From contig VXNM01000010.1 in assembly GCA_009840545.1 (NCBI GenBank), positions 310,001 through 374,000 of the forward strand: a stretch of DNA of 64,000 nucleotides, given 5' to 3'. The notes below the pieces were generated by a model that worked only from the letters and a program-made list of their open reading frames with translations, did no database searches and was not told the DNA's origin. How positions within the stretch are numbered: the stretch's first letter is position 1; each line of letters begins with the position of its first letter. Below are positions 34,286 through 60,663 of the stretch, in pieces. Source of the stretch: Gammaproteobacteria bacterium (GTDB lineage Bacteria > Pseudomonadota > Gammaproteobacteria > Pseudomonadales > Azotimanducaceae). The translations under genes were made by a program, and so were the position numbers.

Positions 34286-36163
34286 ATGAGCTCATTTTCA
34301 AATCGTTGGATCAAAATCGGAGGGATAGTTGTCATTTCTCTTGCGGTAGGAGCTGCGACATCGGCTGTCTTTTTCTTTTCAATTTTTGGGACCGGCAAGT
34401 CGACATCTCTCGATTCAACTTCAATCCAAGAATTTGAACCCGACTCCCTAGCAAATATCGATACGGACCCCAACGCATCCCCTCAGAGCGAACCCGGGAA
34501 CGAGAGAGGCGTATATACCGGTGGTCTTGCAGACCTGCCTCGCTCAGGCAACGAATTCGATCGAACCCTTGAACTGTATCAGCATTTGTCCAATTTGGAT
34601 AAGAACCAGCTAGTCGAAACGCTCGACGAGTCTTCGCACCTTGAACCAGATGCCCGCCTGGATGTTCAACGTCCGATATTTCAGCGATTGGCTTTCCTTG
34701 ACTCAAAGTTGGCATTTGATCGTGCGAAAAAATTGCACCCGAGTCTGATCACTACAGTCTTTTTTCAATGGTCTATTACGGACGTCAATGAGGCCATAGC
34801 ACATGCCAAGACCCTTGATCAACTGCGGAGATCTGCCGCATTGCGAGGCATTTTCAAGTCAAGAAATGACCTGCCTGAAAACATACTTCTACAAATCGGC
34901 AAAGAACTGAACAGCGAAATAGAGGCGCAACGATTAATCAATTCGTCGAAGACTGACGATTATCTCGAGAATCCAGGAGAGTCATGGCGTGAAGTGGTAG
35001 GCACAGTACAGGATGACCCGGCTCAACTAGGATTGCTCCACTCTTTGGCCCGAACTTGGTTCGAGAAGGAGGGATTACCAGTAATCGGTGAAATTAACAG
35101 ATCGCTTACAAATGATCAGGCTAGGAACTCTATATTGGATTCAGTGTTACACATGGCGGTGAGAGGCAATCCGCAAGCTACTTTTGAGTACGTCATGGGC
35201 ATTCAAGAAGACAACAATCACGAAGTTGCTTTGGGCGTGATTCGCATTTGGGGGAGCGCAGACCCAGTTTCAGCTCTCAACGCAGCATTTGCTCTAGAAG
35301 ACTCGCCAGTGCGTCAGACATTCTTGAATTCCGTGATGCAATCGTGGGCCGACAGCGATTCTCAAGCACTTCTAAGCAACCTTGGCTCTTTGCCTGAAGA
35401 GATGCATTCTAAAGGCCTAGAACTGGCGATTAGGTCCATAGCAAGAGATGCTCCCGAGCAAGCAGCATCATTGATAGCACGCATGGAAGACAGTTCAAAA
35501 AAGCACCACGCCGCCCAAATTGTTGTTTGGAACTGGATTCGCTCCGAACCCGTAGCGGCCCTCGATTGGGTCCTAACAGACGCAGAGGTATTACCTTTCC
35601 GCCAAGACTTACTACGTTCCGTGTTGCCGAGCCTTGCCGACGAAAACCCTCAGCTGGCATTTGATACAGCATTGGCTCAGCCTTTAGAAGATGGGAGTCC
35701 AGGTCTAGAAGTCTCCGTGATTGCCCGGCTTGCAGAGCAGAACGATGATTTGGCACTCGATTTGCTGCCCAGAGTGCGGGACGGAAAAACAAAGACTGTC
35801 GCATACGGCATAGTCGGAACCATGTTGATACAAAAAGGCAATCCGTTGGAAGCCATGAAAATGTCGAGCCAGCTGCCCGAGTCTGATCAAGAGGGCTTCT
35901 TCGTGTTCACGATGGGCACATGGGCGGGAAGCGACCCTCAAAGCTTGTTTGACACAATCGATCGTCTTCCATCGCCATTAGCTCAGTCAAAGGCGGCGGC
36001 GATGCTCTCATTCATGAGTCTATTCAGCGAAGAATCTCTAACCGACAGTCAGTTAGAAAGGGTGGAAGAATACCTATCAGAAGAGGATGCACAGTCCGTG
36101 GAAGAAGGAGAAGCTGGACTGATCAAACAGATGATGAGTTTGGGATTGGAATTCATGCCGTAG
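34286..36163 (+). CDS. Membrane-anchored helical-repeat protein, paralogue 1 of 3
   Basis: No known family was recognised. The 625-residue product has one N-terminal transmembrane helix (residues about 12-34, VVISLAVGAATSAVFFFSIF), a Ser/Pro-rich linker, and then about 500 residues of helical repeats of roughly 30-35 residues, each shaped like W...DP..AL..., L....R......L...A...P..A. The most diagnostic unit is EPVAALDWVLTDAEVLPFRQ, followed by SLADENPQLAFDTALAQP. Two paralogues lie at 47024-48799 and 50812-52758 and align along the whole length. Orientation of the anchor suggests a periplasmic solenoid. A tRNA-Gly follows 94 bases downstream. Confidence 0.75.
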   Translation: MSSFSNRWIKIGGIVVISLAVGAATSAVFFFSIFGTGKSTSLDSTSIQEFEPDSLANIDTDPNASPQSEPGNERGVYTGGLADLPRSGNEFDRTLELYQHLSNLDKNQLVETLDESSHLEPDARLDVQRPIFQRLAFLDSKLAFDRAKKLHPSLITTVFFQWSITDVNEAIAHAKTLDQLRRSAALRGIFKSRNDLPENILLQIGKELNSEIEAQRLINSSKTDDYLENPGESWREVVGTVQDDPAQLGLLHSLARTWFEKEGLPVIGEINRSLTNDQARNSILDSVLHMAVRGNPQATFEYVMGIQEDNNHEVALGVIRIWGSADPVSALNAAFALEDSPVRQTFLNSVMQSWADSDSQALLSNLGSLPEEMHSKGLELAIRSIARDAPEQAASLIARMEDSSKKHHAAQIVVWNWIRSEPVAALDWVLTDAEVLPFRQDLLRSVLPSLADENPQLAFDTALAQPLEDGSPGLEVSVIARLAEQNDDLALDLLPRVRDGKTKTVAYGIVGTMLIQKGNPLEAMKMSSQLPESDQEGFFVFTMGTWAGSDPQSLFDTIDRLPSPLAQSKAAAMLSFMSLFSEESLTDSQLERVEEYLSEEDAQSVEEGEAGLIKQMMSLGLEFMP

Positions 36164-38141: not shown

Positions 38142-38867
38142 CTAGCCGCTCAAGAGCTTTTCTCTGCGGTTTCCACGCAGAAAGGCAAGACTGAAAATCA
38201 TGAGCGTGACCAGAGCTATGAAGATTCGATTACGTAGCGTCTCAACAATAATCGCTTTAAGAACTTGGTCGTTGATCGCATGTGGATTGTAAATTGGCGA
38301 GAACCAAATCTGTTGTCCCCCAAACTCTGTGAACAATATGTTCGCTCCCAACAACACCACTGCAACGATCGCCCCAGAGACTTCACTTCTAAATAAAGTG
38401 GAGAACCCCATTGAAACGGCCATGTAGAACACGCCGACTTGAAACGCACCGTACAGGGACTCCAAGTTGTATGGCGTGATCAAAAACCACGCATACAAGC
38501 CCATGATTGCTAACGTCAACAAGAGAATCATGAAGCTTGCTAGGATCTTTACCCACCAAACCTTTTCAGCGCCACCCGGTACGGTGTAAACAATCTCGAG
38601 CGTACGAGCGTTGATTTCGCTCGCGACAATTCTGAGGCCGAGAAATAGACCAACGAAAGCGAGGGGCAAAGCAAGTCGGAACTGAATGCCCGCGTCTCGA
38701 ATGGTCACCCAATCCAGAATCTCCATGCCCGACTGAGGTCCAAGCCAAACAATTGGAACGATGATCGGAATAAGCCAAAACTTGTGACCGGCGATGGCAA
38801 TGGCCGCATAGCGCAGTACTTCAATTTCTTGAAAAAGAAACTTGATGGAGCGGGACACTATGTTCAT
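38142..38867 (-). CDS. ABC-2 type permease subunit coupled to the RND-ABC fusion
   Basis: The 241-residue protein has six hydrophobic helices and the ABC-2 layout: an N-terminal amphipathic region, then FVGLFLGLRIVASEINARTLEIVYTVPGGAEKVWWVKIL, a coupling segment usual in gliding-type and CcmB-like permeases. Its ATG overlaps the TGA of the 1602-residue RND-ABC gene by four bases, so translation is coupled and the ATPase at the end of that protein is the likely partner. Substrate unknown. Confidence 0.8.
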   Translation of the reverse strand: MNIVSRSIKFLFQEIEVLRYAAIAIAGHKFWLIPIIVPIVWLGPQSGMEILDWVTIRDAGIQFRLALPLAFVGLFLGLRIVASEINARTLEIVYTVPGGAEKVWWVKILASFMILLLTLAIMGLYAWFLITPYNLESLYGAFQVGVFYMAVSMGFSTLFRSEVSGAIVAVVLLGANILFTEFGGQQIWFSPIYNPHAINDQVLKAIIVETLRNRIFIALVTLMIFSLAFLRGNRREKLLSG

Positions 38868-41800
38868 GACGTTGCAAGGAGCCAGAGATATCCGTCTTCG
38901 GGACGCGGGTTCAATTGCTTTGCATCTTCGGATGGACTCTCATTCCAGATGATTCGCTGGATAGTATCGCCCGAGGCATCTGGAGCTTCCTCAGCGAGAA
39001 TTGCTCCTTCGGGCAATGACTTGTCCTCGCCTTGCTCAATCTTTTTCTCCCAAACCCGGCCGACTGCGTTCGTGGCAAGGTCGCTTGGTGTTCCATCGAA
39101 TCTCAATCGACTCTTTGCAATCACCAGGACACGCTCACAGGAAATTGCTACGTCCTCGACAACGTGAGTTGAGAACAGAACAATGCGAGTTTCGGCAAGG
39201 CGTGCCAGCAAGTTTCTAAATCGAATTCGTTCGCGAGGATCCAATCCAACTGTGGGTTCGTCCACGATTATGATTGCGGGCAATCGGAGAAGCGTTCGTG
39301 CCACGGCAACCCGTTGTTTCATACCGCCAGAAAGAGAACTGATCTTGTCGTCAATCTTGTCGGCCAACCCAACTTCTTCGATGAGGCTTGCAACTCTTTC
39401 CTTGCGAATCTTAGGATCGATGTCGTATAGAGCGGCGTAGTACTGTAGATAGTCGCGTGGTGTGAGGCTGAGCGGAAGTCCCGCATCTTGGGGCAAGTAG
39501 CCTACCCACCGTGCCAACACCTTTTGGATGGCTCGAAGCGGAACTCCTCCGATCTTGATCGCGCCTCGAGTTGGGTTGATGATTCCTGCCAACTGTCGGA
39601 GTAACGTGGTCTTGCCGGCACCATTGGGACCAAGAATCCCAATCATGCCGCGTTTGGCAGTGAAGCTGACCGACCACAACGCACGGATTTCTTCAGCGGG
39701 CAGGTCCAATCCGCCAACACGTCGACTAAGCCGTCTCCACCAAGTACGGGGATATTTCATGAATCCTCGCACAACACGATCGGGCAATTCACCTCTCTCC
39801 TGTCTGGTCGCGCTTCTGCGCATGACTTGCCCGAAAGCGAGTAGCAAAGTCGCAACGATCGGCCAGAAGAGCGTGGTTTGAGTCCCATCTTCGTTAAGAA
39901 TTGGTCGGACAAAAGTGAAGTAAACGAATCCACCGATGGTCAGCCAAGGCAACAGTACGGCTAGAAAGCCTTCTATCCCTCCCCTTCGCGCCCGACCGTC
40001 GTCGGAAACTAGCCCTCTCGCTTTTCGAATCTCCAAGAAAACTCTTGCGATAAATCCACTGGCGATCAACCAAAATATCAAACCCCACCCTCGTTCAGGT
40101 GTAAGCCATCCCAACGCACCCGCTCCAAGCGCAAGAATCGAAAAGACCAAAGACCGCTCAAACATGTCCTTGCGATTGAAAACTCTTCCTCCTGCCGCGA
40201 CGACCTTGCGAGCGAAATTCTTGTGTGCGTTTAGCGTTCTGCGAATGGGTCCAGGTAAACCGTAAATCTTGCTCAAGTACGTAACCTCTAGTTCGGGTGG
40301 TCCGTCCGTGGTGTCCGGTTCAGGAATGTGAACCCTTCGGAAGAAAAACACGATCAGCGCAAGAAGAACACCTCCAACTAGCAACCCAACGACGAGCTGC
40401 CAAAGCAAACCATTGAGGCCTGCCACCAAAATTAGCAACGCCATGATTCCTATTAGTGCAACACCCCACCCGATGACAAGCCAAGGTCCAACTCTGCCAA
40501 AGAGAAGGTCTAGTCTTCTAAGCAATACATAACCTATCGGGACAATGATCAACGTCATAATCGCCGAAGTCGCCAGACCTGACATCACCACAATAGCGAA
40601 GGGCGGCCAGATTTCGTTTTCCGCTCCTGTGGCGAGCGAGAGTGGCCATAGTGCCGCTATGGTTGTTGCGGCGGTCAACAAAACGGGACGCGTTCGTTCC
40701 TTGACGGCCGCATATGCAGCAGCGCCTGAAGAGTAGCCAATTCGGCTAAATTGTTGCATACGGTCGATGAGCAGAATGGCTGGATTGACCATGAGTCCGA
40801 TTAAGATCAGAATGCCGGAGATCACCATGGGATCGAACAATGGTGTCCCGGTCAAGGCAAGGCCCCACAAAGTCCCGAGCACGGTCAGTGGAATCGCAAC
40901 CATGACTAGCACTGGCAGAATCAGCGACTCGAGAATGATCGCTAATGAGAGGAACACCAGACCCAAGGCAGCAAAACCGAGTTGTTGGCCAGTGTCTACG
41001 TTCTCTTCATCCGCATCTGGAATGTCAATTACGTAGCCCTCGGGTCGTGGAACGGATCGTATGAAATCCTTAATCTCATTCTCAATGGATTCACGTCCAC
41101 TTCCAGAATCTGGCACAGAACGATCCAACGAGTACATGACCTTCATCTCTCGTCGCCCGTTCTTGTGAACAATCACTCCCGGAGCTGGCATTTCTGTTAC
41201 TCGCGAAAATGCCGCTATTGGCAGAACACCTTGGGAAGTCTGGATGCGCGTGTCGTTGAAGTCTCGGCGAGAATCCGATTCTTCACGAACTCCTTCTCGT
41301 TCTACAACCACTGAAATTTCTCGACCCGACCGCAATGGATAGGGGGACGCAAGTGTTTGTCCCCTCTTGCCAGCTATTTGCAAGAATGGTAGTGCTTCCG
41401 AAACCGTCAGCCCAAACGCCTGCAAGGCAGTCTCATCGGGTTCCACCCACAGTTCTGGATTTCTTGGTTGAATCGGAAGCCAAGACCGATCCACGTAATT
41501 CACCTCGGACAGCCGCGCCTGCAAATCTTGGCTCAACGCCATGAGTCTCTTCGGATCTGGACCGGACAGAATTACCTCCTGTCCTGACGAACCACCAAAA
41601 AAGCTCCCGTGCCCACGACCTCGACCAGCACTGCTGTAGTCCATGTCACCTGTAGTGCCTATCGAAAGTCGAGTCGTACGTCTTGCAGAATCTTCAGCTG
41701 CTTCCCGAATACGGACCGCGCTGAAATCGGGAGGTCTTTCATCTTGCTCGACAAAGTGTACGGTGAACCTAGCCTGATTTTGATTCACCGCAGCTTCAAC

Positions 41801-43672
41801 CGTATCGACGCCTTCCATAGACTTGATGTCACGACCAATCATCGAGACGTACGAAGCCATTGTGTCCAAGTCGGTAGTTCTGTTGTGCGAAACAGTGGTT
41901 GTAAAGTTAATCGAGTCCGCCTGCGGTGGATCGTCCGCATTACTGTTGTTTTGCATTGCCCACGGGGCAGCAATGACGACCGTCACAACCACAGCTATAA
42001 GCGTTCCTGCTAGCCAGGATGGAGGTTGGCGAAGAGCGTTTGTAACCAGGCCTGCCAATAAGACTCTCGCTCTATCCGGAACAAGCATTCCACCACGCTG
42101 TTCGCGTCGTTGTTGTTGCTCTTTTACGCGTCTTACAGCGGCTGGAGCTGCTAATCGGTGCGCAAGCAGCGGAACCAATCCAATGGCGACTAACAGTGAC
42201 GAGAATAACGGCAACACGACCGAGACACTCAGTACTTGTAGTACTTGCCGAAAAAGTGCCGATTCAATCGGAATTAGAAAAACAGGAAGAAATACGATGG
42301 CTGTCGTGACACTGGCACCGACGATGGCCCTAACAGTCTTTCGTAGGCCCAATCGAGCTGCTTCTGTAGGGGTTATTCCTCGTTCGATTCCGCGTAAGAT
42401 TGCTTCGTAAACTACAACACTGTTGTCCACAAGCAACCCTACCGACATGGCCAAACCAAACAACGTGAGGAGGTTTATGGAGTGACCAAGCAGATAGAGT
42501 CCCGCGATTGCTGTCATCAGACTCACAGGCACTGCGATTCCGACAATTGCTACAGCACGCCATTGGCGGAGGAAAAGGAACAACACCAACAGCGCAACAC
42601 AAAAACCTGTCAAACCAAGATTGATAAGACGTTGTATTTGCTCGTCCAATGACCTCGAGGCATCGAAGCCAATTTTGAGGTCAATACCAACAGACTGGAC
42701 GACTTCGCGTATTTCTCCCAACCGTTTTCGAACATCCCTGCCAATTTCGATTAGGTTCGAGCCTTGTTCCTGTTCTAAGGTGATTCCAACCGCAGGATTT
42801 CCGTCCACTTGGAATATTTGGGCGTTCTGTCCATAGCCTAAGTAAACATCCGCCACATGTCCCACAGTAAGAGGGTTGTTCGAAGATATGCGGGCTTGTC
42901 GCAGAGTGTTTAGAGAGTCGACAGTGCCATCAAAAACGACATTGGTACGGCCGTCTTCCGACTCAAAATTGCCAACATAGACTGCTGAACCTAGTTTGCT
43001 GTTCAACGCGCCAATCACTTGTTCGATCGTCGCTCCTAGACTTGCAGTCTTATCGGTGTCGACTGCAACGATCACTTGCCTTCCGCCTCCTCCAATCGCA
43101 ACTGCGCGCGCAACTCCTGGAATGCTCGAAAGACGAGGCACTACCATTTCAACCGCAAGGTCGTACACCTGGTCTGTTTCGCGGTCTCCGCCGAGTACGT
43201 AGAGGGTCATGATGTAAGCATCAATACTCCCAAGGTTGTCAGCGCCGCCCCACACAGAAATGTTGGTAGTTCGAAGTTCTGAGTTGCGCTGCAACCTGCT
43301 CGCTATCCTTCGTATTTCGTACTCGCGAACCTTGAGGTCGGTGCCTGGATCGAAAGTGATCTGTAGCGAACCACGGTCGCCATAGATTTGACCCACGGTT
43401 TCTCGTATTCCTTGGAGTCCCCTGATGCGCGAAGTAAGAGGAATGAGAACCTCCCTCTCAACAACATCAGCGGTACTACCGGGTCGCTGAAAGCTAACTG
43501 AGAGTTGTTCGGTAGGCATAGCGGGGAACAACTGGATCGGCATTCGACTGATACCAACTGCCCCAAGAATGATGATTGCAAGAAACATCATCGCGGTAGC
43601 AACCGGCCGCAAGACCGGCAAACTTAGGAAATCTGGAAGCAGTTTCCGTGGTTTGGCAGTTATTTCCGCCAC
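38864..43672 (-). CDS. RND permease fused to an ABC ATPase with a split nucleotide-binding domain
   Basis: The single uninterrupted 1602-residue frame carries a full RND (AcrB-like) permease at residues 1-1055: LRPVATAMMFLAIIILGAVG is helix 1, TM4 reads VGLLVDNSVVVYEA with Asp about 416, and TM10 reads IGLMVNPAILLID without the AcrB lysine. Two more helices follow (about 1060-1112). ELEVTYLSKIYG (about 1126-1137) is the first strand and A-loop of an ABC ATPase. About 190 residues with four hydrophobic helices intervene. The ATPase then resumes with ALWSVSF, Walker A LGPNGAGKTT (about 1345-1354), signature LSGGMKQR (about 1447), Walker B IIIVDEPTVGLDP and H-loop STHV. No periplasmic adaptor or outer-membrane channel gene is nearby. 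Confidence 0.85.
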   Translation of the reverse strand: MAEITAKPRKLLPDFLSLPVLRPVATAMMFLAIIILGAVGISRMPIQLFPAMPTEQLSVSFQRPGSTADVVEREVLIPLTSRIRGLQGIRETVGQIYGDRGSLQITFDPGTDLKVREYEIRRIASRLQRNSELRTTNISVWGGADNLGSIDAYIMTLYVLGGDRETDQVYDLAVEMVVPRLSSIPGVARAVAIGGGGRQVIVAVDTDKTASLGATIEQVIGALNSKLGSAVYVGNFESEDGRTNVVFDGTVDSLNTLRQARISSNNPLTVGHVADVYLGYGQNAQIFQVDGNPAVGITLEQEQGSNLIEIGRDVRKRLGEIREVVQSVGIDLKIGFDASRSLDEQIQRLINLGLTGFCVALLVLFLFLRQWRAVAIVGIAVPVSLMTAIAGLYLLGHSINLLTLFGLAMSVGLLVDNSVVVYEAILRGIERGITPTEAARLGLRKTVRAIVGASVTTAIVFLPVFLIPIESALFRQVLQVLSVSVVLPLFSSLLVAIGLVPLLAHRLAAPAAVRRVKEQQQRREQRGGMLVPDRARVLLAGLVTNALRQPPSWLAGTLIAVVVTVVIAAPWAMQNNSNADDPPQADSINFTTTVSHNRTTDLDTMASYVSMIGRDIKSMEGVDTVEAAVNQNQARFTVHFVEQDERPPDFSAVRIREAAEDSARRTTRLSIGTTGDMDYSSAGRGRGHGSFFGGSSGQEVILSGPDPKRLMALSQDLQARLSEVNYVDRSWLPIQPRNPELWVEPDETALQAFGLTVSEALPFLQIAGKRGQTLASPYPLRSGREISVVVEREGVREESDSRRDFNDTRIQTSQGVLPIAAFSRVTEMPAPGVIVHKNGRREMKVMYSLDRSVPDSGSGRESIENEIKDFIRSVPRPEGYVIDIPDADEENVDTGQQLGFAALGLVFLSLAIILESLILPVLVMVAIPLTVLGTLWGLALTGTPLFDPMVISGILILIGLMVNPAILLIDRMQQFSRIGYSSGAAAYAAVKERTRPVLLTAATTIAALWPLSLATGAENEIWPPFAIVVMSGLATSAIMTLIIVPIGYVLLRRLDLLFGRVGPWLVIGWGVALIGIMALLILVAGLNGLLWQLVVGLLVGGVLLALIVFFFRRVHIPEPDTTDGPPELEVTYLSKIYGLPGPIRRTLNAHKNFARKVVAAGGRVFNRKDMFERSLVFSILALGAGALGWLTPERGWGLIFWLIASGFIARVFLEIRKARGLVSDDGRARRGGIEGFLAVLLPWLTIGGFVYFTFVRPILNEDGTQTTLFWPIVATLLLAFGQVMRRSATRQERGELPDRVVRGFMKYPRTWWRRLSRRVGGLDLPAEEIRALWSVSFTAKRGMIGILGPNGAGKTTLLRQLAGIINPTRGAIKIGGVPLRAIQKVLARWVGYLPQDAGLPLSLTPRDYLQYYAALYDIDPKIRKERVASLIEEVGLADKIDDKISSLSGGMKQRVAVARTLLRLPAIIIVDEPTVGLDPRERIRFRNLLARLAETRIVLFSTHVVEDVAISCERVLVIAKSRLRFDGTPSDLATNAVGRVWEKKIEQGEDKSLPEGAILAEEAPDASGDTIQRIIWNESPSEDAKQLNPRPEDGYLWLLATS

Positions 43673-45832: not shown

Positions 45833-46696
45833 CTAACTGGTGCTTCGTAGTTCCGTCAGTCGGTCGTCTTTACGTTTCCACAGGTCATTGACAAACTCCT
45901 TCGGATTGGATTGAGTCTGATTTGTCATTTCAACCGGTTGAATAAAGATGTTCACTGCTTTACAACGACCGCATAGCAGCTCCCAAAAACCGGGTACTGC
46001 CCCTTCGTAGTTGAGCGTAAGATCAACAATCGTCGATGTTTTTGAACCGAGAGCATCGATAGTAAACAATAGACCACCCGTTCGTGGTGTGAGCAAATGT
46101 AGAAATGGCGAAGATTGGGATTGGTGTTTTTCCGCAGTGAACCGCGTCCCTTCCAGGAAGCTGAGCACTGATATTGGACGATGGAGAAACTGTTCCGCAG
46201 CTCGAGACATGTTGCGTCGGTTCTTTTCATAGGCGCTGCTGTTTCTACCGTTGGACGCTCGCACGCGTCGTTGGACATATGGAAATCGAAGTAGCCACAT
46301 AGCCAAACCAACAAAGGGCACCCAGATCAGCTCGCGCTTGGTAAAGAATTTGATCGGCGGAGCCAGATTGAGCAAAACCACCTGAATAATGATTACATCG
46401 GACCAACTTTGGTGGTTGCTTGTGAGGATCCACCAGTTGGACCTATTGTCCAAGACGCCCTCGATTGTCGTCTTGAATTCAATGAGACGCAACAATCGAA
46501 TCAACCAAGCATTTCCTGAGACCCAACAGGTGACAATCCCGTCCATAGACCCAGTTAACGCTGATCGAGCTTGTCGAACTGGAGTCAACATCCTGACTAC
46601 AGCCAGAAGGTATATCGCCAGACAACAAAGAACAGTTGCCGAAACAAGAAATGCGACGGCAATCAGACCCTTCAATACTTGTAGAACCGACTCCAC
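45833..46696 (-). CDS. Lysophospholipid acyltransferase-family protein (PlsC/AGPAT-like)
   Basis: The 287-residue product starts at a GTG, has one or two N-terminal helices (residues about 8-32), and carries SNHQSWSDVIIIQ (the HX4D catalytic box) and VLSFLEGTRFTAEKHQ (the FxEGTR acyl-acceptor box), followed by the LPLAT third motif near VDLTLNYEG. The group with HQSWSD and long C-terminal extension resembles eukaryotic-type AGPAT3-5 homologues in bacteria. It esterifies a lysolipid in the inner membrane. Its 5' end abuts an IS110 remnant. Confidence 0.88.
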   Translation of the reverse strand: MESVLQVLKGLIAVAFLVSATVLCCLAIYLLAVVRMLTPVRQARSALTGSMDGIVTCWVSGNAWLIRLLRLIEFKTTIEGVLDNRSNWWILTSNHQSWSDVIIIQVVLLNLAPPIKFFTKRELIWVPFVGLAMWLLRFPYVQRRVRASNGRNSSAYEKNRRNMSRAAEQFLHRPISVLSFLEGTRFTAEKHQSQSSPFLHLLTPRTGGLLFTIDALGSKTSTIVDLTLNYEGAVPGFWELLCGRCKAVNIFIQPVEMTNQTQSNPKEFVNDLWKRKDDRLTELRSTS

Positions 46697-46796
46697 TTGT
46701 TCGAATTGCTTCTATGGACGAGGAATCTTTCCAGAACACAGGAAATTGCAAATCAAGTGTACCGTCGAACAAGACAAACTGTTCAGAGTTTGGCGA

Positions 46797-46934
46797 CAAT
46801 TGCTTGAAGTAGTCAAGCACCTGACCGCGTCTGAGCTGCGTCTGCTCGAGGCAGCGTCCCGACTCGTCGGCGCAGAACACCTGAAACGAGCTCTTCGCAA
46901 GATCGAGACCAACCGTTGTAACATTGATTTCCAT
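46797..46934 (-). pseudogene. IS110-family transposase remnant, N-terminus only
   Basis: From the ATG at 46934 the minus strand reads MEINVTTVGLDLAKSSFQVF, then CLEQTQLRRGQVLDYFKQL, the DEDD-type N-terminus of IS110/IS1111 transposases with the first catalytic Asp in GLDLAK. After about 46 residues the similarity stops and the frame runs into unrelated sequence overlapping the acyltransferase start. The Ser-C-terminal domain is absent, so the element is dead. Confidence 0.85.
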
Positions 46935-47023: not shown

Positions 47024-48799
47024 ATGTTTCTTCAATCAAAATCACAATTTTTTCGATTCCCATTTGGGATCACAAAATCATTGGTCAAATCCGCATCTAT
47101 CGTATTGCTAATTTCGTCCATAATTGCAAATGCAGACTTCAGTAACGATGAGCCAAAAAGTGACCAGGTCGCATCGATAGATCAACATCGGGAAGAAGCA
47201 CATATACTCCCACCAAGCTTCGACTTTGCGAACAGCGTTGAATTTTTCGTTCAACTAGATAACGCCAAGACAAGAGAACTTAACGATTTGCTCGACTTGT
47301 CCAAGAAAATTTCGCAGAACAGCGTGCGTCACGAGGCTCAATTTGTTATCTTTCGGAAGCTTGCCTCAATTGACCCAATTCTTGCACTACGTCAACTAAA
47401 TGAGATCCCGGAAAACGAGCGAGAAGTTTCGATCAAAGGGATTTTTCGCGAGTGGTCTCTCTCGGATTTAGATGCAGCACTTGATTCTGCAAAGTCACTA
47501 TCAGCGCCTCTTAGATTGGCTGCACTTCAAGCCATTTTGAAATATAGAGACGACTTACCACGTGATGTTCGACTGAAAATTTCAAGTGAATTAGGCGGCA
47601 AACAATTTGCACTAATACAGTTTAGTAGAGAAGAGGCAATTTCAAACCTAAACGAGCCCGACAAGGCATGGGATATCCTGCTCACTGACAACGTTGCAGA
47701 TGTGTTGCAACTTCAGTTGCTCATTCGAATTGGGCTTGAGTGGGCAGAAGTTGAAGGATTCGATGCTTTGTTTCATATCAATGCCTCAACAAACAGGGGT
47801 AACCGTTCTCTCATGGCCAAAGTAGTCTCGGCCATTGCGGACTCCGATCCAAAGGGCGCATTCGCACACGTTGCAGAATTGAGTGCACAGTCGCTATATC
47901 CTTTTTTATTGCAAGCCATCGTCCTGCACTGGGCGCATTCGGACCCCGTAGGTGCGCTAAACGCACTTTCGACTTTGAACATCGACCATCGGGGACTGAA
48001 GATTCTCGAACTTGCAGTAGCCAATTCGTGGTCTGCCTCACAGCCAGGCGCGTTGCTTGACGAGCTTGCTAGATTCTCCCCAAGTGCTCAAGTAGAGATA
48101 GTCGAGGATGCACTTGAAGAGCTTGCTCGAACAAATCCAAGAGACGCAATCGAAAGGATGCGGTCTCTGAAAGAACTGATAGGGAATTCAACCGGAATAG
48201 AAAAGAAGCTGGTTGGAATCTGGTCTCATGATCAGCCGTTAGCCGCCCTTGAATGGGTGTTGGGGGAGGCACAACCCCAATCCGCTCGACGACTCGAATT
48301 GATTGAATCTGTGCTGCCAAGCTTGTCGCGTTCGCATCCTGAACGAGCAATGGAGGTAGCACTACAGGAACCTGAAATAAATAATCAATTAGGGTTAGAG
48401 CACCTCGTCATTAATGAAATATCAGACTTTGACATTGAGCTCGCACTAAAAATGCTGCCCCAAGTGCGCGACTCCGCTCGTGGGCTTTCGTTTGCTTGGA
48501 TAGGCGGTGCAATCATGAGAACTGGCGATCACTCACGTGCGCTCAAACTAGGCGAAGAATTATCAGGATATCACAGGGCTCTCTTTTACGAGAGCGTCGG
48601 CGATGCTTGGGCCTTCGCAAATCCCCAACAAATGCTCAATGCGCTCAAAGATATTCAGTCGAAAGAGATTCAGTCAGTTATGGCTCAGCGCCTCTTGCAA
48701 GTAAACGACTTTTCCCATGTGATTGCGCCCGAAGAGATCGAACAGGTTGAGTCTCTCGTTGAACCGCAAGATCAATATCAGAAGAATGAAGTGCAATAA
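47024..48799 (+). CDS. Secreted helical-repeat protein, paralogue 2 of 3
   Basis: The 591-residue product is homologous along its length to the proteins at 34286-36163 and 50812-52758. N-terminal residues 18-38 (SLVKSASIVLLISSIIANA) form a signal peptide or anchor. The repeats again follow W...DP..ALNAL and QPLAALEWVLGEAQPQSARR, then ESVLPSLSRSHPERAMEVAL. It is more diverged than the other two and has a somewhat lower GC content by eye. It starts 28 bases after the IS110-associated inverted repeat, so its promoter region is partly of insertion-sequence origin. Confidence 0.75.
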   Translation: MFLQSKSQFFRFPFGITKSLVKSASIVLLISSIIANADFSNDEPKSDQVASIDQHREEAHILPPSFDFANSVEFFVQLDNAKTRELNDLLDLSKKISQNSVRHEAQFVIFRKLASIDPILALRQLNEIPENEREVSIKGIFREWSLSDLDAALDSAKSLSAPLRLAALQAILKYRDDLPRDVRLKISSELGGKQFALIQFSREEAISNLNEPDKAWDILLTDNVADVLQLQLLIRIGLEWAEVEGFDALFHINASTNRGNRSLMAKVVSAIADSDPKGAFAHVAELSAQSLYPFLLQAIVLHWAHSDPVGALNALSTLNIDHRGLKILELAVANSWSASQPGALLDELARFSPSAQVEIVEDALEELARTNPRDAIERMRSLKELIGNSTGIEKKLVGIWSHDQPLAALEWVLGEAQPQSARRLELIESVLPSLSRSHPERAMEVALQEPEINNQLGLEHLVINEISDFDIELALKMLPQVRDSARGLSFAWIGGAIMRTGDHSRALKLGEELSGYHRALFYESVGDAWAFANPQQMLNALKDIQSKEIQSVMAQRLLQVNDFSHVIAPEEIEQVESLVEPQDQYQKNEVQ

Positions 48800-48959: not shown

Positions 48960-50195
48960 TTAGGGATCTTCTCTTTCCTGAACCACGCCATTCTCGAATG
49001 TCACTTCTTCCTGGCTACCGTCTTCAAACGTGATTTTCCAAGTCCCATGTCGTCTCCCCTTTTCATAAGGTCCAGTCCATCGACCTCCATCAGGATACGG
49101 TTCATCCCAGACTCCATCCGGTTCACCATTTACCATCGGTCCTTCGGCTCTGACTCCCTCGTGGTTAAGAAACACCCAATTTCCGTGGTGTCTGTCGTCG
49201 ACAAAAGGACCTTGTGCACTTCCACCATCGGGAAAATTGAGGATCCATTCCCCTGCGCGAACACCATTGTCGTAGGAACCCTTGTTGCTACCACCGCCGG
49301 CAAACGTGGAGTTCCATTCACCGTGCCTCCGCCCGTTGGCATACGGACCCTCCATTCGACTCCCATCAGCGGTCAGAATTACCCAGTTCCCGTGTCGCTT
49401 GCCGTTCTCGAAGCTTCCTTTCTCGATGCTTCCGTCCGTTCCTTCCTGAATCCAATCGCCATGCTTTATGTCCTCCACATACGTTCCTTCGTGTCGAGTT
49501 CCATTGGCGGTTACGATGACCCAATTTCCACCTCGAAGCCCATTTACATAGTTTCCTTCGTGACTACTCCCGTCCGCGTGTGAGATCTTCCAGTATCCAT
49601 GCCTGACATCCATGACAAACGGACCTTCGGCACGCATTCCGTTCACAGTCTCCATAACCCAGTCGCCGTGCGCATGACCTTTTTCATACATCCCTTCGCT
49701 TCGCCCCACAACGGGATTGTTTGATAGCCATAGTCCGTGACGAAGGTTATCCACATACGACCCTTCTACAATCCCTCCCATAGGATCTTTTTCTCTGAAT
49801 TGACCTTGAGCTAGTCCCTGAACGAATGTCCCTGTCATAGTGTGAGTTAGCCAATTTCCGCCTCGTTCCCACTTGAAGGTTGCAGTCCCAGACCCTAATA
49901 GTTTCTCGTCAGGACACTCGGCGATTCCATCGAAAGAAGCAGTTTCCCCATCGCTCGGTCGACGGTCAATCCATATATGGCAATTCTCTGTGTCTTCCAC
50001 GAGCATCCAACAGCCTTCAGTCGAGTCTTCAACATGACAAATCGGTTCGAGAGGCTCTGCTGGATTGGTTGTCACGTCCTTGCTCTCAATACTCATACAA
50101 CCGGTCAGGACGAAGCCAGTTGCGAATCCCATTACCAAGACGACTCGCTGTAATGGGATCCGAATGCAAGGTTGAGCCTGCACTGTTAAAGTCAT
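48960..50195 (-). CDS. Lipoprotein with twelve MORN-like repeats
   Basis: The ATG at 50195 follows AAGG and is chosen over a longer frame from 50264 because it places a lipoprotein signal (VVLVMGFATGFVLTGC, lipobox LTGC) correctly. The mature 411-residue precursor has a Cys-containing linker (CHVEDSTEGCWMLVEDTENC) and then twelve tandem units of about 23 residues of the form EGxYxxGxxHGxW, for example GSFENGKRHGNW and GPYANGRRHGEW. These are MORN/YwqK-type beta-hairpin repeats that form an elongated platform. Likely attached to the outer membrane. It follows the third solenoid gene on the same strand. Confidence 0.85.
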   Translation of the reverse strand: MTLTVQAQPCIRIPLQRVVLVMGFATGFVLTGCMSIESKDVTTNPAEPLEPICHVEDSTEGCWMLVEDTENCHIWIDRRPSDGETASFDGIAECPDEKLLGSGTATFKWERGGNWLTHTMTGTFVQGLAQGQFREKDPMGGIVEGSYVDNLRHGLWLSNNPVVGRSEGMYEKGHAHGDWVMETVNGMRAEGPFVMDVRHGYWKISHADGSSHEGNYVNGLRGGNWVIVTANGTRHEGTYVEDIKHGDWIQEGTDGSIEKGSFENGKRHGNWVILTADGSRMEGPYANGRRHGEWNSTFAGGGSNKGSYDNGVRAGEWILNFPDGGSAQGPFVDDRHHGNWVFLNHEGVRAEGPMVNGEPDGVWDEPYPDGGRWTGPYEKGRRHGTWKITFEDGSQEEVTFENGVVQEREDP

Positions 50196-50811
50196 ATCGA
50201 TTACCTTAAGATGTTCTTTCGAAGTATAAACCCGATTTTGACTTCGATTCTCTTTAGTCAGCAAACCAAGAGTTAACTATTCACAGGTGTGCCCAAGAGC
50301 GGTATACCAGTACCAATCCCAACGTACTGTTAGCTACTACGATGACAAAAGTCAGTGCAAGAGAGAAAACTGTTGCCGCGAGACCCAGAGTCATCACTGA
50401 GCTTTGTTCAGCAGACTCTTCTATAGCTCAAACTCGATTCAAGAGTAGCCACCCAAAGAAAACGAGCAAGGGAAACCCAACCAGACAGTCGCGGTGCGGA
50501 GAGCGTCACAAAGCCGTACTTTCTACAACCGGTTCAGTGGGAGGAGTGTTGAAACAACTCCAAAACGAGACATCACTCGCCTGAACTCCAGAAGCTACAA
50601 GGACTTGTACTTCCAAACGCATGTCAGCCTGGAAAGCCCTGCCAAAGACGATCAGCACGTCCATTACCCAAAAACTCTTCCGAACCGTCACAGGATGGAA
50701 TACGCACATTCTCGTCTGCTCGGACAAAGCTTGAGCAGGAGTCAGGAAACCGAGCGCACCAGGTCTTCAGCAAGTCTAGGTACGAACAGCAATCACCGCC
50801 GATAGGATTGT
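50196..50811. other. Intergenic region of about 600 bases, no convincing gene
   Basis: A 37-residue frame on the minus strand (50281-50394) encodes one hydrophobic helix (LALTFVIVVANSTLGLVLVY) but lacks a ribosome-binding site. The same frame upstream meets two TGA codons. Plus-strand frames are basic, low-complexity and unlike coding sequence. It could be a decayed small membrane-protein gene. Confidence 0.35.
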
Positions 50812-52758
50812 CTACTCTGAGTCCTCAGATTCCACAGCGTCGGTATAAATGACCGCACCCGAGACTGCGGCACCTCCGACACCTCCAAAATGAATAAATT
50901 CTGTACCTATTCGGTGACCCATTCCTTGCGAAATCTGTTCGACCGAATTGGCGTCTCGTTCGTTCAGATAGGACTTGGCATGGTTAACCTGATCCTCGTC
51001 TAGACTCTTTGACCACTTGTTGAACGAAATCAGTCTCATTGCTGCAAACGACTTTAACTCATCCGACGGAAGACCGTCGATGGACTCATAGAGCTCGCTT
51101 GCATCGTGTGACGCCCACGTGCTCACTACACTTTGGTAGTAGGCTTCGCGTTGAGAATTGGAGAGTCGATTCGCCAGCACCCAAGCCTCATCGATATCCC
51201 CACTTCTTACCAATGCACCCCCAACAGAATTGAGTGCATACGCTAACGTTGGACCCTCGCGGACCTGGGACAGCAATGCAAGTGCTTTCTCAATGTCCGA
51301 ATAGGCAATATTGGACAAGACTTGTGCTTCAAGTCCTATTTGGTTCTCACCGATTGGCTGTTGAAGAGCAATATCAAACGCAAGCTGTGGATCTCTGCTA
51401 GCAACTTGGTAAAGAATTGACGGAAGCAGAGTCGTTCGCTGGTCCTCGACGTCTGGGTTGTTGAGTACCCATTCAAGTGCTGCCAACGGGTCCTTGTTCG
51501 CCCATACACTCATTACTTGGAAGGCTGTCATGAGCTGATATTCGCCTCCATCCATGTTTGCCATCAGATTGGCGGCCTCTTCGGGAGCAGTTTGTGCTAA
51601 AGCGGTTAGGGCGGAGCTCATCGCAGCGTCTCGGGCGTTTTCAGGCAAGAGATCAAGACTGTCGAGCACTTCACGCGGATTGCTTCTACCCCATGTTGAA
51701 GCAATGCTGTGAACCAATGAGTTGCGCAAGCTCTTAGAGTCCACGGACTGCACCGCAGCGAGCGCTGCTTCAGGGTCCAGTCTTGCCCAAGCACTCACTA
51801 CGTTCATAATGACGGTGTTGTGGGTATCGTTCTCCATTGTTCGAACAAAGTCGAAGGCACTTTGTGCATCCGCTTGTACAAGCTTGTGGATAACTGCGGA
51901 CAGGACAGACGTCTTGGATGTCCAGTCAGTCAGCGTGTTACTAATCTTTCCCAAGACAGACATGCCGTCCTCTTCAACCCACGCTTCAGCGACTTGAATA
52001 AGCGTTCCCGTTTGAGCTGTGTCGAGCAGGTCGTCTCCGATGAGAGTGTCCCAAGCTGATTCTGGGTCCTCAATCGCTTCGGAGAGATTGGACTGCGTCA
52101 CGATGTTTTGGGCGACACGTGCATTGCCCAATTGACGCCCGATTTCAATACGCACGGCATCCGAAAGATCATCACGCGACTCCAGGATGCCGCGTAGAGC
52201 TGCAAGCTTTCCAAATCCGTCCAACCTTTTTGCATTAGCTATCGCATCGTCCAAGTGCGTGAGTGCCCATTCGCCGAAGACCGTTGCCAGAAGATCTCCG
52301 TGTTGCAGTCTCGGCATGTTCGAAACTTGCTTGACGGCACTCTTGGGGTCGAGCGAAGCGTACCTGCGGAAGATTGTGCCTTGTACAAGTTGCCTGCGGC
52401 TGGTATGCTCGATTGCAACCGACTGTTCAAGGAGACTGAGGAGTTCCTTTTGTCCCGCAGAAGCTAGTGTGTTGTGCAGTGCTACTGAAAGACCAAAATT
52501 GCCTTGGTGCCTCAAGAGAGTCCCCATGGGTCCATCGTCGTGTGTTCCCTTCAAGGGCGACGCACCAACACTGCCTTGTTCGCTCGGTGCACCTATGAAT
52601 TCCTCGTTGCTAACTATTGAACGTCCGTCGTCTGAGAAACTACTCCCCGTGAACATCGAATTTGCAACAAAGACACCAAGCATGGCACCTCCCCCTATCC
52701 CAAGGCCCATCATGAACTGAAAGGAAAGACGGAATGGTTTAGTTTCTTGTGAATCCAT
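50812..52758 (-). CDS. Membrane-anchored helical-repeat protein, paralogue 3 of 3
   Basis: The 648-residue protein has one N-terminal helix (MMGLGIGGGAMLGVFVANSMF, residues about 15-34), a Ser/Gly-rich linker and the same solenoid as the proteins at 34286 and 47024: DPLAALEWVLNNPDVEDQR, then ASRDPQLAFDIALQQP. The closest pair by eye is this one with paralogue 1, sharing SADPVSALNAAF/DPEAALAAV-type units in the same order. Its C-terminus adds a glycine-rich FGGVGGAAVSGAVIYT tail. The MORN lipoprotein gene follows on the same strand. Confidence 0.75.
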   Translation of the reverse strand: MDSQETKPFRLSFQFMMGLGIGGGAMLGVFVANSMFTGSSFSDDGRSIVSNEEFIGAPSEQGSVGASPLKGTHDDGPMGTLLRHQGNFGLSVALHNTLASAGQKELLSLLEQSVAIEHTSRRQLVQGTIFRRYASLDPKSAVKQVSNMPRLQHGDLLATVFGEWALTHLDDAIANAKRLDGFGKLAALRGILESRDDLSDAVRIEIGRQLGNARVAQNIVTQSNLSEAIEDPESAWDTLIGDDLLDTAQTGTLIQVAEAWVEEDGMSVLGKISNTLTDWTSKTSVLSAVIHKLVQADAQSAFDFVRTMENDTHNTVIMNVVSAWARLDPEAALAAVQSVDSKSLRNSLVHSIASTWGRSNPREVLDSLDLLPENARDAAMSSALTALAQTAPEEAANLMANMDGGEYQLMTAFQVMSVWANKDPLAALEWVLNNPDVEDQRTTLLPSILYQVASRDPQLAFDIALQQPIGENQIGLEAQVLSNIAYSDIEKALALLSQVREGPTLAYALNSVGGALVRSGDIDEAWVLANRLSNSQREAYYQSVVSTWASHDASELYESIDGLPSDELKSFAAMRLISFNKWSKSLDEDQVNHAKSYLNERDANSVEQISQGMGHRIGTEFIHFGGVGGAAVSGAVIYTDAVESEDSE

Positions 52759-55165: not shown

Positions 55166-58100
55166 TCAATTTTCGTCTCGAGCGACCAACTTCCAACGAA
55201 TAGCGTCCGCAACCCTTAGCGATTTAGGCGGCTTAACCGATACAAGATCCAAGTGCACTGAGGATTTAGATAGGTCAAATTCTCCTGCATGAATCCAGCC
55301 AGAGCCATCTTTCGGATCCACGTGTAATTGCCTCTCGCCTCGAGAGTCGAGAAGAACAAAATTGTGAACTCCAAATCGACCAACAAGTCCGTATGAGGTT
55401 GGAAAGTGGTAGAAAAGAGACCATTTTCCACCTAAAGGCAATTCTGCCGAGAATCGGGCGGTCTCCACGTCGGTGCCAAACGTCGCCAACGCGGTTGGCC
55501 GGTACCTGCCGTAGGTACCAGACCAAGGTGCTGCCACAATCCTCCAAGTCCTGTTTCCCCTGAGTTTGTTCCAACTGAAACCATCCAATCCCATAGCCCG
55601 GATTGGCGTTAATGGAGGTGGGTCCCAGAACCATTGAAAGTTCGAAACCCCTCGAGATTCGGACTGACTCTCCCAGTTCACAAGTCGAAATCCCGGGTCC
55701 AAGTTATCCACAATTACAGTGTTTTCGTCGAAAGGATTCCACGAAATCTCAGTGATAGTAGGAAGCAGTGTCTCTTGAGTGATGTCCGCAGGGTCCTGTC
55801 CAGACTCTCTTAGAGGGCCTACGTAAGTTCCTTCTTGATTTTGGGAATAGAATGTGGCGACGAAAATGTCCAAAATTTTTTCCTCTGCATACAGGTTAAT
55901 CTGATAGGCCGTTTGGCCTGGCACTTCCACGCATATACCTGTATCTATCGTGTCGAGATAGTGGTCGGTGTAGAACTCCACCACTCCCGTAACGTCGGTG
56001 TCGTTTCGGATCTTGAAAGAACCCCGGTGTGTGAAGGGTGCATCTTGGACTTCTACCCGAACAACCTCCAACCTCGAAGTGCTAAATGCAGGAGCATGTG
56101 TCGACTCGTACCATTCATCCAGAAGTGGGATCAACGATCTTGATGAGTCCTTGAGCCCGTTAGTCGCAGTGTCTGCATGCGACATGGAGTGTTCCGCAAT
56201 CCGCTTCGATTCCTGATCGAGCAGGTCCTGGAGTCTTGCATTGCCATAGAGTCCTACGAGAGCTCGGTAGGTGCCGGACAACCTCTGTTCCACTGCTGAC
56301 CTTCTGAGCGAGATGTCGTCACTTTGAAGCAATTCTGACATCTTCATGGACTGAACGGAAAATGAAGCGTCACTGAGCATGAAGCGTTCGTACAGCCTTC
56401 CTTCAAGTCGAGTTGGATCTAGCCGTGGATAGATTCCAAAAGAAAACTCAACCACAGTACTGGGATAGATGGCCGTCAAGTCTGCAATCTCTTCAACAAA
56501 CGCAATGTCAGTCGGAGCCGTATTGGGATCGTCGGGTCCCATCACGGTGTCAATCAGAAGCATCCTCTTCATGTGGTTCAATGCCAGTCCCTCCCACCCT
56601 ATCGAGGTGACTAGGAAGGGAAAGTACTGTTCTGCAACAGCACTCAACAGGTTTCCTCCGAGAATATTGGTGTAGTCATAAAAGAAAATGTTTTCTGTCA
56701 CATACTGCTGACGTTGGTCATCTGTCATGTCAAAGGTCAAGTACCTTTCATACATCTCATCCATCTTTGCGGTAGGAAATCCACTCTCACGTATCAACAC
56801 CATACCCGGTTGTGAATAGAGGAACGGCATGTTGTAGCCACCGACAAGTCGGAGGTGGTTGGGTACTTCTACGAATGTCAGTGAACGGTAAGGAAAAGGC
56901 AATCCAGCCTCCGATAAATCCGAAAGTCGGTCCTTTATGAATCCCAACATCAAGCTCCAAATGGCAGTCATCGACTCGGTCTGCTCGAATTGTTGGTGAT
57001 GAAGGAGCAGTTCGATCTCGACTTCGCCCGCATTGGCAGTGTGCGATTGGAATTCGGAGGCAACGATTGCAAAATGTGGTACTTCGCCACTGCTCTGGAT
57101 CTGGTAGTGAATAGAGTCTTCAGAAGCCAGAAGCAAGCGTTCCGGTGCAGCCAATTTCCAGTTCTTGTTCGCAAGATGGATATCGAGGTCAACAGAATAC
57201 GTGTCCACGGGTGTTTGCATCGACTGGACCGACTTGTCGATTTCTAGGGGCAACGGTACGGGATACCATCGGACTCCCGGCATCAGTGCGACAAACCGAT
57301 GATCAAAGATTGAATTCTTCGTTCCAAGCAATTTGGGCATTTGCGGTGAAGATCCTGACGTTCTAAGGTAATCTCTTTCTGAATCTGGATAGCCAAAGTT
57401 CACGTCTGGTACTCCCTTTCCACGTATCGAGACAATCCATGTATTGCTAGTAGATTCGTTGCTGGATAGAGGAATAGTGAGAAGTCCGTCCACAAAGGAA
57501 TAGTCCCGGTCCATCTCGTCGACACGAACGTGGTCCAGTTCCATTCCCGGGTTGAACGAAAATTGAAGCGAGTCCAACGACGTGTCGTTTGCTCTCACCA
57601 CAAGGTCAACATCAACGAGCAAACGAATACCAGGGTCGACTTCCACCTTTCCACTGATGTTGGTGAGTTCCAACGAGACCTGGTCGGAAAAATTTCTGTG
57701 CGTGGATGCGACACGTTGCTCTTCTTGAAACTCACGGTTTACGACAAAACCGTGAACAAAAAGACCTGCAACCCCCACTCCTAAACATGCCAGAGCAATA
57801 TATATGTAACGCGATCGAAGTACATCGCGTCTTGAGTCAAGAAAAGCTGCAGCCAAGCATAAACCGGCCGCGATAACGATCCAAACAAGTCGATTGAGCA
57901 GAATCGAATTGGTGCTGAAATACGGCAAAATTTCCGAAACCAGTATGGAGTGAGTTGCACAATAGGACACCATCTCTCTCCAACTAAATGGGACCAATTG
58001 AATGAGGACCAGATGGAGGAATGCGACAGCTAGAGTCGCTACGCCCACCAGCATCCTACTTCTCAAAACCTGTTGGAGGAGTAGTGCGAGAGCTCCATAG

Positions 58101-58600
58101 AACACTATGGTTACGGGAACATCCACAAGAATCAGATTCAAGATCGACATCGGTTCGGGTGCAGGACCAAAGTCCAAACCAAAGACTTCTCCGAGCAGTG
58201 AAACTCCAAAGATCACAGTGAAGTTCACTAGGGGAATTACGAACACCAGCGTCGAAATGCCGAGAAGCGATCCTGCAATCCAACAGACATTCATGTGTCT
58301 CTTGGCATGGATGGTATCCATTATGTCGCTGCTCCGCATTCGCTCGGAGTGCACTAAGGTCAATGCAACCACGACGAACTGCAGCAAGAAGAAATGTATG
58401 GAATCGATGTTTCCAACGACAAACTGGGTACCGTTGTAGCCCAAGTTTGGAGATCTAACGGTGAAGTAGGTCTGATACATTGCTGCAAACACATACGAAA
58501 TTTGCAGCAGAAAACTTAGAAATAGGAATAGAAGCTTGTAGTGGTAGGAACGCGTTAGTTCCTTAATGGTGCATCGGGTGATGGCCAAAATCTCTTTCAT
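55166..58600 (-). CDS. ABC-2 permease with degenerate M1-peptidase-like ectodomain and golvesin-like C-terminus
   Basis: The 1144-residue protein has about seven helices in its first 290 residues (LLFLFLSFLLQISYVFAAMY; FFLLQFVVVALTLVHSERMR and others) in the layout of ABC-2 permeases fused to M1 aminopeptidases. The ectodomain has FVEVPNHLRLVGGYNMPFL and LLSAVAEQYFPFLVTSIGWEG, where M1 enzymes have HExxH..W; here no HExxH exists anywhere, so the zinc site is lost. Residues about 980-1144 resemble golvesin C-terminal domains (GKWSLFYHFP, LHVDPKDGSGWIHAGEFDL). No ATPase gene is adjacent. Probably an inner-membrane transporter with a substrate- or glycan-binding periplasmic region. Confidence 0.7.
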   Translation of the reverse strand: MKEILAITRCTIKELTRSYHYKLLFLFLSFLLQISYVFAAMYQTYFTVRSPNLGYNGTQFVVGNIDSIHFFLLQFVVVALTLVHSERMRSSDIMDTIHAKRHMNVCWIAGSLLGISTLVFVIPLVNFTVIFGVSLLGEVFGLDFGPAPEPMSILNLILVDVPVTIVFYGALALLLQQVLRSRMLVGVATLAVAFLHLVLIQLVPFSWREMVSYCATHSILVSEILPYFSTNSILLNRLVWIVIAAGLCLAAAFLDSRRDVLRSRYIYIALACLGVGVAGLFVHGFVVNREFQEEQRVASTHRNFSDQVSLELTNISGKVEVDPGIRLLVDVDLVVRANDTSLDSLQFSFNPGMELDHVRVDEMDRDYSFVDGLLTIPLSSNESTSNTWIVSIRGKGVPDVNFGYPDSERDYLRTSGSSPQMPKLLGTKNSIFDHRFVALMPGVRWYPVPLPLEIDKSVQSMQTPVDTYSVDLDIHLANKNWKLAAPERLLLASEDSIHYQIQSSGEVPHFAIVASEFQSHTANAGEVEIELLLHHQQFEQTESMTAIWSLMLGFIKDRLSDLSEAGLPFPYRSLTFVEVPNHLRLVGGYNMPFLYSQPGMVLIRESGFPTAKMDEMYERYLTFDMTDDQRQQYVTENIFFYDYTNILGGNLLSAVAEQYFPFLVTSIGWEGLALNHMKRMLLIDTVMGPDDPNTAPTDIAFVEEIADLTAIYPSTVVEFSFGIYPRLDPTRLEGRLYERFMLSDASFSVQSMKMSELLQSDDISLRRSAVEQRLSGTYRALVGLYGNARLQDLLDQESKRIAEHSMSHADTATNGLKDSSRSLIPLLDEWYESTHAPAFSTSRLEVVRVEVQDAPFTHRGSFKIRNDTDVTGVVEFYTDHYLDTIDTGICVEVPGQTAYQINLYAEEKILDIFVATFYSQNQEGTYVGPLRESGQDPADITQETLLPTITEISWNPFDENTVIVDNLDPGFRLVNWESQSESRGVSNFQWFWDPPPLTPIRAMGLDGFSWNKLRGNRTWRIVAAPWSGTYGRYRPTALATFGTDVETARFSAELPLGGKWSLFYHFPTSYGLVGRFGVHNFVLLDSRGERQLHVDPKDGSGWIHAGEFDLSKSSVHLDLVSVKPPKSLRVADAIRWKLVARDEN

Positions 58601-60661: not shown

Positions 60662-60663
60662 CC

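Follow-up and report, generated by a model that had tools for sequence, protein, structure and literature searches.

A conserved gene joining an RND permease to an ABC ATPase domain in Gammaproteobacteria, and the candidate composite exporter around it

Resistance-nodulation-division (RND) pumps and ATP-binding cassette (ABC) transporters count as distinct superfamilies, each with its own source of energy, the proton gradient for the former and ATP for the latter. In AcrB the proton relay is made of D407 and D408 in transmembrane helix (TM) 4, K940 in TM10, R971 in TM11 and T978, according to the sections used here of a review of tripartite efflux (PMC8277102), and those sections contain no RND-ABC fusion. 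Among systems with two different RND proteins, the portion used here of a 2025 paper (PMC12802153) reports that MdtB2C is the active heterotrimer and that MdtB retains Asp407, Asp408 and the TM10 Lys. Exact-phrase searching of the open-licence literature, in which a miss is weak evidence, found no RND-ABC fusion or hybrid. Described here is a gene that joins the two kinds of transporter in one reading frame, located in a stretch of 64,000 nucleotides (hereafter the window; positions 310,001 to 374,000 of contig VXNM01000010.1, assembly GCA_009840545.1) from a gammaproteobacterium of the Azotimanducaceae. The gene and its parts, numbered by residues of the encoded protein and with NBD standing for nucleotide-binding domain, are as follows:

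38864-43672, minus strand: the RND::ABC fusion gene (RND2::NBD), 1602 residues, GTG start
40508-43672, minus strand: RND half, a complete ACR_tran domain, residues 1-1055
40292-40507, minus strand: two extra hydrophobic segments after the RND part, residues 1065-1083 and 1093-1111
40259-40291, minus strand: the string LEVTYLSKIYG, residues 1128-1138, which by its motif, not by a structure, is the putative first strand of the ABC domain with its A-loop
39698-40258, minus strand: insertion, residues 1139-1325, whose four hydrophobic segments fall within 1174-1284
38867-39697, minus strand: remainder of the ABC nucleotide-binding domain and a C-terminal extension, residues 1326-1602

A preliminary description, made from the letters of the window and a list of its open reading frames, held that this one frame contains a complete RND permease and all the motifs of an ABC ATPase, and the frame, the Pfam profiles and a motif check bear it out. 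ACR_tran covers residues 18-1051 (E 1.1e-142; 477.4 bits, cut-off 28; profile positions 4-1020 of 1021) and ABC_tran covers residues 1335-1474 (E 5.1e-28; 98.8 bits, cut-off 25), and the ABC motifs are complete: a Walker A (GPNGAGKTT) starting at residue 1348 (39605-39631), a signature (LSGGMKQR), a Walker B with its Glu (VDEPTVGLDP) and a switch His (STHV). By profile the N-terminal half belongs to the RND superfamily, and by profile and motifs together the C-terminal part belongs to the ABC ATPases. Among the NCBIfam matches listed (25 of 209 families) no RND subfamily cut-off is reached, the best being RND_permease_2 with 389 bits against 1250, and no model spans both the RND and the ABC parts. 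The earlier suggestion that the fusion unites two energy-coupling systems is likewise supported.

The RND permease and the motif-complete ABC ATPase domain are a single conserved polypeptide. When the joint segment (residues 1040-1335) was searched for in 194 genomes of the same order, it was present in four: the window's own genome (G000), two congeners (G105 and G157) and one member of the same family (G076). Two wider draws, like the first from the Pseudomonadota and with at most six candidates per genome scored against the joint profile, added one carrier. Five of 369 genomes of the class matched at E <= 0.001, namely G000, a genome of another family (G522; E 5e-37, open frame of 1671 residues, gene call of 1578) and three partial matches, and 398 genomes of the phylum yielded G000 and one partial match of 20.6 bits. 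The weak matches (three in the class, one in the phylum; 19-22 bits, partial, in frames of 453-735 residues) are taken as chance. A peptide-pattern scan of genome contigs found the fusion also in two metagenome-assembled Gammaproteobacteria (loci L005 and L006), for a total of seven genomes; the overlapping draws of 194, 369 and 398 genomes contained no further genome with the fusion, nor did the joint occur in them unfused. The window, L005, L006, L007 (G105) and L008 (G157) each have the gene as one complete frame, of 1592-1606 residues. The G076 gene is interrupted by two contig ends (L009:1-80 and the start of L015) at a proline-codon repeat within the RND half; one contig has the beginning of the RND part, and the other has its remainder, the joint and the ABC part as one frame. 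Identity of five relatives to the window protein, given in the same order throughout, is 75.8, 61.3, 46.6, 46.3 and 41.9% in the RND half (the last for the partial G076 piece), 83.0, 70.0, 49.1, 45.0 and 43.1% in the joint, and 94.2, 85.6, 62.5, 65.7 and 64.6% in the ABC part; G522 is the most distant relative, with 35% in the joint.

As read from the sequence, the joint is more than a linker, passing through two putative TM segments, an ABC-like strand with an A-loop, and four more putative TM segments before the rest of the ABC domain begins. The string LEVTYLSKIYG is conserved across the fusions and is assumed here, from its resemblance, to be the first strand of an ABC domain with its A-loop aromatic residue. 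The proposed A-loop Tyr stands 202-219 residues before Walker A in all seven fusions, and none of them shows the uninterrupted ABC domain whose A-loop strand closely precedes Walker A; in ATP1, the partner ATPase introduced below, the equivalent stretch lies directly before Walker A, and a model of five ATP1 proteins aligns to the fusions only from its position 29-32 onward. Because of this long separation and this truncated match, the ABC domain of the fusion appears to be split by a four-TM module, a feature absent from the preliminary description. Since the added hydrophobic segments number two plus four, the ABC part would be left on the cytoplasmic side. Comparison of the joint profile with solved structures gave only chance-level matches to unrelated proteins (best E 1.4). 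A plasmid search with residues 1050-1602 matched 1639 records, none of which covers 80% of the query, and the eight matches listed align only from query residue 264 on, which is the ABC part.

The fusion gene is followed in all seven genomes by the same small gene, which in the window is:

38142-38867, minus strand: ABC-2-like permease, 241 residues, six hydrophobic segments, overlapping the fusion gene by four bases

The four-base overlap, which the preliminary description read as tying an ABC-2 permease gene to the fusion, recurs in six of the seven genomes (the permease of L006 starts with the ATG at 9689), and in G105 the start lies two bases behind the fusion; both overlap and linkage are supported. 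ABC-2 permeases have six TM helices and are encoded beside an ATPase, and the small protein conforms in having six hydrophobic segments and a place beside the fused ATPase in all seven cases. The window copy falls below the ABC-2 cut-off (17.2 bits against 27.2), and four of the seven family members match PF12679 at E <= 0.1 (best 8e-06). Among the 369 class genomes the permease was found in two, both of them fusion carriers, and against solved structures its profile gave only chance-level matches to unrelated proteins (best E 0.055).

The fusion and its permease form part of a larger operon in two genomes of different families. The order in G522 (L017/L028) is ATP1 (a second ABC ATPase, 305 residues), BIG (a large permease-like protein, 1167 residues), an RND adaptor (390 residues), RND1 (a second RND permease, 1016 residues), the fusion and the permease, with neighbouring genes overlapping or at most six bases apart; ATP1 and BIG overlap by 32 bases when the longest frames are taken. 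G076 (L015 and L009) has the same order up to the contig break within the fusion, the permease being on the second contig and the start of BIG not being fixed. RND1 and the fusion gene overlap by four bases in both. In G000, G105 and G157 the ATP1-BIG-adaptor-RND1 set is a separate operon elsewhere in the genome (L018, L029 and L030). In the G000 copy ABC_tran and ACR_tran are recognised, the adaptor is of the RND type (TIGR01730, 178 bits against a cut-off of 94.9), and the BIG protein reaches no family cut-off. The preliminary description had remarked that no membrane-fusion protein gene is adjacent; this is true of the window, where adaptor families were unmatched among the ten proteins scanned (the fusion, the permease and eight neighbours), because the G000 gene set is split and its first four genes lie on another contig, C2. 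It is not true of the system at large, since the co-encoded adaptor that characterizes a tripartite efflux pump is in the fusion's own operon in G076 and G522 and in the second operon in G000, G105 and G157.

All five ATP1 proteins carry a Walker A, a signature, a Walker B that includes its Glu, and the switch His. The RND1 of G522 shares 57% identity with its G076 counterpart and 53% with the one in G000. A midpoint-rooted FastTree phylogeny places the RND1 proteins and the fused RNDs in distinct clades, each with a support of 1.0, and in both clades the five shared genomes branch in the same order (one RND1 node has a support of 0.754). Genes for outer-membrane factors (PF02321) are present in all seven genomes; searches of the genomes of L005 and L006 covered BIG and PF02321 only. 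Directly downstream of RND1 in G000 there is a gene for a TonB-dependent receptor (L018:3690-5960; best model ZnuD, 311 bits, cut-off 950), which is not included in the system because it is absent beside RND1 in G105 and G157. In G157 another BIG gene immediately precedes the four-gene operon on its upstream side (L030:1131-4619).

The BIG proteins, of about 1150 residues, make up a strongly expanded family, of which one member lies in the window:

55166-58600, minus strand: BIG paralogue, one of 16 near full-length copies in G000, seven hydrophobic segments followed by about 850 presumably periplasmic residues

The G000 loci are this one together with L034, L038, L040 and L053-L065, and the genome has 19 matches in all, of which three are fragments. 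The counts are three in G105, two in G157, three in G076 (one with a stop) and one in G522. There are 14 matches in the genome of L005 and 20 in that of L006; two of these 20 are short pieces and one has a stop. Hydrophobic segments number seven in 19 of 24 distinct copies and six or eight in the other five, and nearly all are in the N-terminal third. Golvesin_C was matched at E <= 1 by all six members scanned (best 2e-11) and ABC2_membrane_2 weakly by three of the six (best E 0.45), and the BIG profile had no match at E <= 1 among solved structures. No open-licence paper joining golvesin with an ABC transporter was found by exact-phrase searching, where again a miss is weak evidence. An M1-peptidase-like domain was considered and dropped, because Pfam matched none in six members and, of the 16 near full-length copies in G000, a single one has an HExxH string. 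With the best three candidates scored per genome in the order draw and the best two in the class draw, BIG was found in four of the 194 order genomes, exactly the four that carry the fusion, and in two of the 369 class genomes, again exactly the fusion carriers; since G000 is in both draws, this amounts to five distinct genomes with BIG and fusion together. Three genomes of the same family as G000 (G039, G133 and G179) have neither. An ABC ATPase frame lies within about 1.5 kb on either side at one of the 16 near full-length BIG loci of G000.

The residues of the fused RND that correspond to the AcrB positions D407, D408, K940, R971 and T978 are D, N, N, R and T or V, and with Asn at both the D408 and K940 equivalents the fusion departs from the relay of the AcrB-type HAE-1 pumps. 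The TM4 Asp is retained and the following Asp replaced by Asn in all six fusions that hold this part; the Asn in place of K940, a Pro as the next residue and the TM11 Arg are each found in seven of seven; and the T978 equivalent is kept in five of seven, being Val in G105 and G157. Of the 13 other RND proteins in the comparison set, 12 come from the fusion genomes, RND1 accounting for five of these, and the remaining one comes from G133. Eleven of the 13 also have Asn at the K940 position, with Lys in one and Glu in one, and it is for this reason that the loss of the TM10 Lys is uninformative and that a firm claim of lost proton coupling in RND2 was rejected; such loss is only a possibility. 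At the next residue the 13 proteins have Asp (nine), Asn (three) or Leu (one) and never Pro. The TM10 Pro, specific to the fusion in the set compared, fits a weakened or altered proton path in RND2 without proving one.

Gene order, co-occurrence and domain content lead to the favoured reading, held with about even confidence, that the gene is a covalent bridge between the two halves of one composite ABC and RND envelope exporter and is its energised subunit. RND2, the RND half of the fusion, would form a mixed trimer with RND1 that docks on the adaptor, and the fused ATPase with the small permease would pair with ATP1 and the membrane part of BIG as a two-ATPase, two-permease ABC-2 exporter, the covalent joint holding exporter and trimer together. 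ATP would power the exit of the substrate from the inner membrane or cytoplasm and its handover to the RND and adaptor part, which would pass it on towards an outer-membrane channel. RND1 may carry most of the proton coupling, with RND2 acting mainly to tether and couple. The orphan BIG copies could be exchangeable, substrate-specific partners of one shared ATPase set, and the substrate is guessed to be an amphipathic or lipid-like compound.

Several observations weigh against this proposal. RND1 and the adaptor are not beside the fusion in five of the seven genomes (the window, L005, L006, G105 and G157). No PF02321 gene lies at the fusion or partner locus in G000, G105, G157, G076 or G522, or in the stretches of 15.5 and 16.9 kb around the fusions of L005 and L006. 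The co-occurrence of BIG and fusion comes from five genomes in two overlapping draws with few candidates scored per genome, and because the genomes are so few and the draws overlap, few independent gains or losses stand behind it. The loss of the TM10 Lys, shared as it is with most of the other RND proteins, is not specific to the fusion. An hhalign probability of 14.6% does not establish that the small permease is homologous to the membrane portion of BIG. Structures predicted from three-row alignments, for fusion residues 1050-1602 and for the permease, have very low mean values of the predicted local distance difference test (pLDDT; 41.1 and 42.7) and were not used.

The alternative that fares best, though unlikely, is that the fusion acts only as a tether: the NBD and the small permease would be an independent ABC-2 exporter, the RND half would serve in an ordinary pump, and the fusion would fix their co-expression and co-localization. 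That both halves are complete by profile is in keeping with this, and the split gene sets of G000, G105 and G157 show that RND1 and the adaptor can come from a separate transcription unit. Mere tethering is, however, hard to square with a proposed first ABC strand some 210 residues before Walker A and four hydrophobic segments between them, an intimate fusion in seven of seven genomes, and with the failure of any of the three overlapping draws to yield the joint in unfused form.

It is also improbable that ATP drives the RND pump directly. The NBD would in that case dimerize between protomers or with ATP1 and would move the RND TM domain via the added TM helices, in MacB-like mechanotransmission that replaces or boosts the proton gradient, and the permease would be accessory. 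Such a drive would suit the attachment of the NBD through two plus four extra hydrophobic segments rather than a loose linker, the intact catalytic ABC motifs, and the Pro in TM10 of the fused RND where nine of 13 compared RND proteins have Asp. An RND trimer has three-fold symmetry, however, and an NBD dimer two-fold; moreover the TM4 Asp and TM11 Arg are retained, and the ABC-2-like permease that adjoins the fusion in all seven genomes suggests a normal pairing of NBD and permease.

Less probable again is that BIG and the ATP1-BIG-adaptor-RND1 operon have no part in the machine of the fusion and have only lineage and ecology in common with it. The operon and the fusion are unlinked in G000, G105 and G157, and BIG also spreads alone, since at 15 of the 16 near full-length G000 loci an ABC ATPase frame is lacking in the roughly 1.5 kb on each side. 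Against such independence stand the single operon in two genomes of different families, with its four-base overlap of RND1 and fusion, and the identical presence of BIG and fusion in the genomes searched. Finally, an assembly or frameshift artefact joining two genes is excluded for practical purposes because the same fused frame is kept in other assemblies of related genomes with joint identities of 35-83%; the preliminary description had allowed that the halves might be separate in close relatives, and in the relatives found they are fused.

Other features of the region are given for completeness. The fusion in the window, L005, L006, G105 and G157 has as neighbours an alcohol dehydrogenase gene and an upstream divergent Urate_ox_N-like gene, the latter assigned by a Pfam match for the window copy only and by eye for the other copies. 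Three window proteins of 591-648 residues (34286-36163, 47024-48799 and 50812-52758) look like paralogues by eye, and the first two, which were scanned, have no Pfam match. A 434-residue protein (48960-50264) with many short repeats like G-x-x-H-G-x-W also has no Pfam match. At 60362-61950 a short helix-turn-helix-like gene precedes a HipA-like gene, presumably a HipBA-type toxin-antitoxin pair. The frames at 46479-46934 and at L061:107-517, one of them beside a BIG copy, have similar beginnings, which resemble the start of an IS110-type transposase.

If the gene is the covalent bridge of a composite exporter, the system might in its fullest form represent a new exporter class with two energy sources, a proposal put forward tentatively and with more doubt than the bridge itself. 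A trimer of RND1 and RND2::ABC would be covalently locked to a two-ATPase ABC-2 exporter, its NBD split by a membrane module of its own, and exchangeable BIG subunits (16 near full-length copies) would set the substrate while sharing the ATPase set. A conserved polypeptide of RND and ABC parts, with an adaptor and another RND and ATPase in its operon, is a natural system for a direct test of whether an RND pump can be driven or gated by ATP hydrolysis. It also presents a membrane module apparently inserted within an ABC nucleotide-binding domain, and it connects BIG, a permease-like family that is strongly expanded and uncharacterised, with a candidate machine.

In comparison with known systems, the fusion shares with AcrB-type HAE-1 pumps an RND permease that is complete by profile, and differs from them in the replaced D408 and K940 of the relay and in the C-terminal ABC extension. 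ABC-2 ATPases of the DrrA, GldA and NodI type provide the best-scoring models for the fused ATPase (GldA 171 bits, DrrA 151) and for ATP1 (DrrA 201, GldA 189), far below the family cut-offs in both cases; unlike them, the fused ATPase is joined to an RND permease and seems to be interrupted by a four-TM insertion, and its small permease is under the Pfam cut-off. MacAB-TolC includes an adaptor. Like the fusion, it joins an ABC ATPase to a membrane protein, as given in the sections used of PMC8277102; in the fusion a full RND permease comes first and the NBD follows at its C-terminal side. MdtABC and MuxABC have one adaptor gene and two different RND genes in a row, as here, and MdtB is among the best-scoring solved relatives, aligning over the whole RND half (fusion residues 18-1056). 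They are without an ABC domain, the small permease and BIG, and the fusion keeps only the first Asp of the relay pair. By analogy, in a likeness of gene order only, the MdtBC-type two-RND systems would be the nearest precedent for the RND part of the system.

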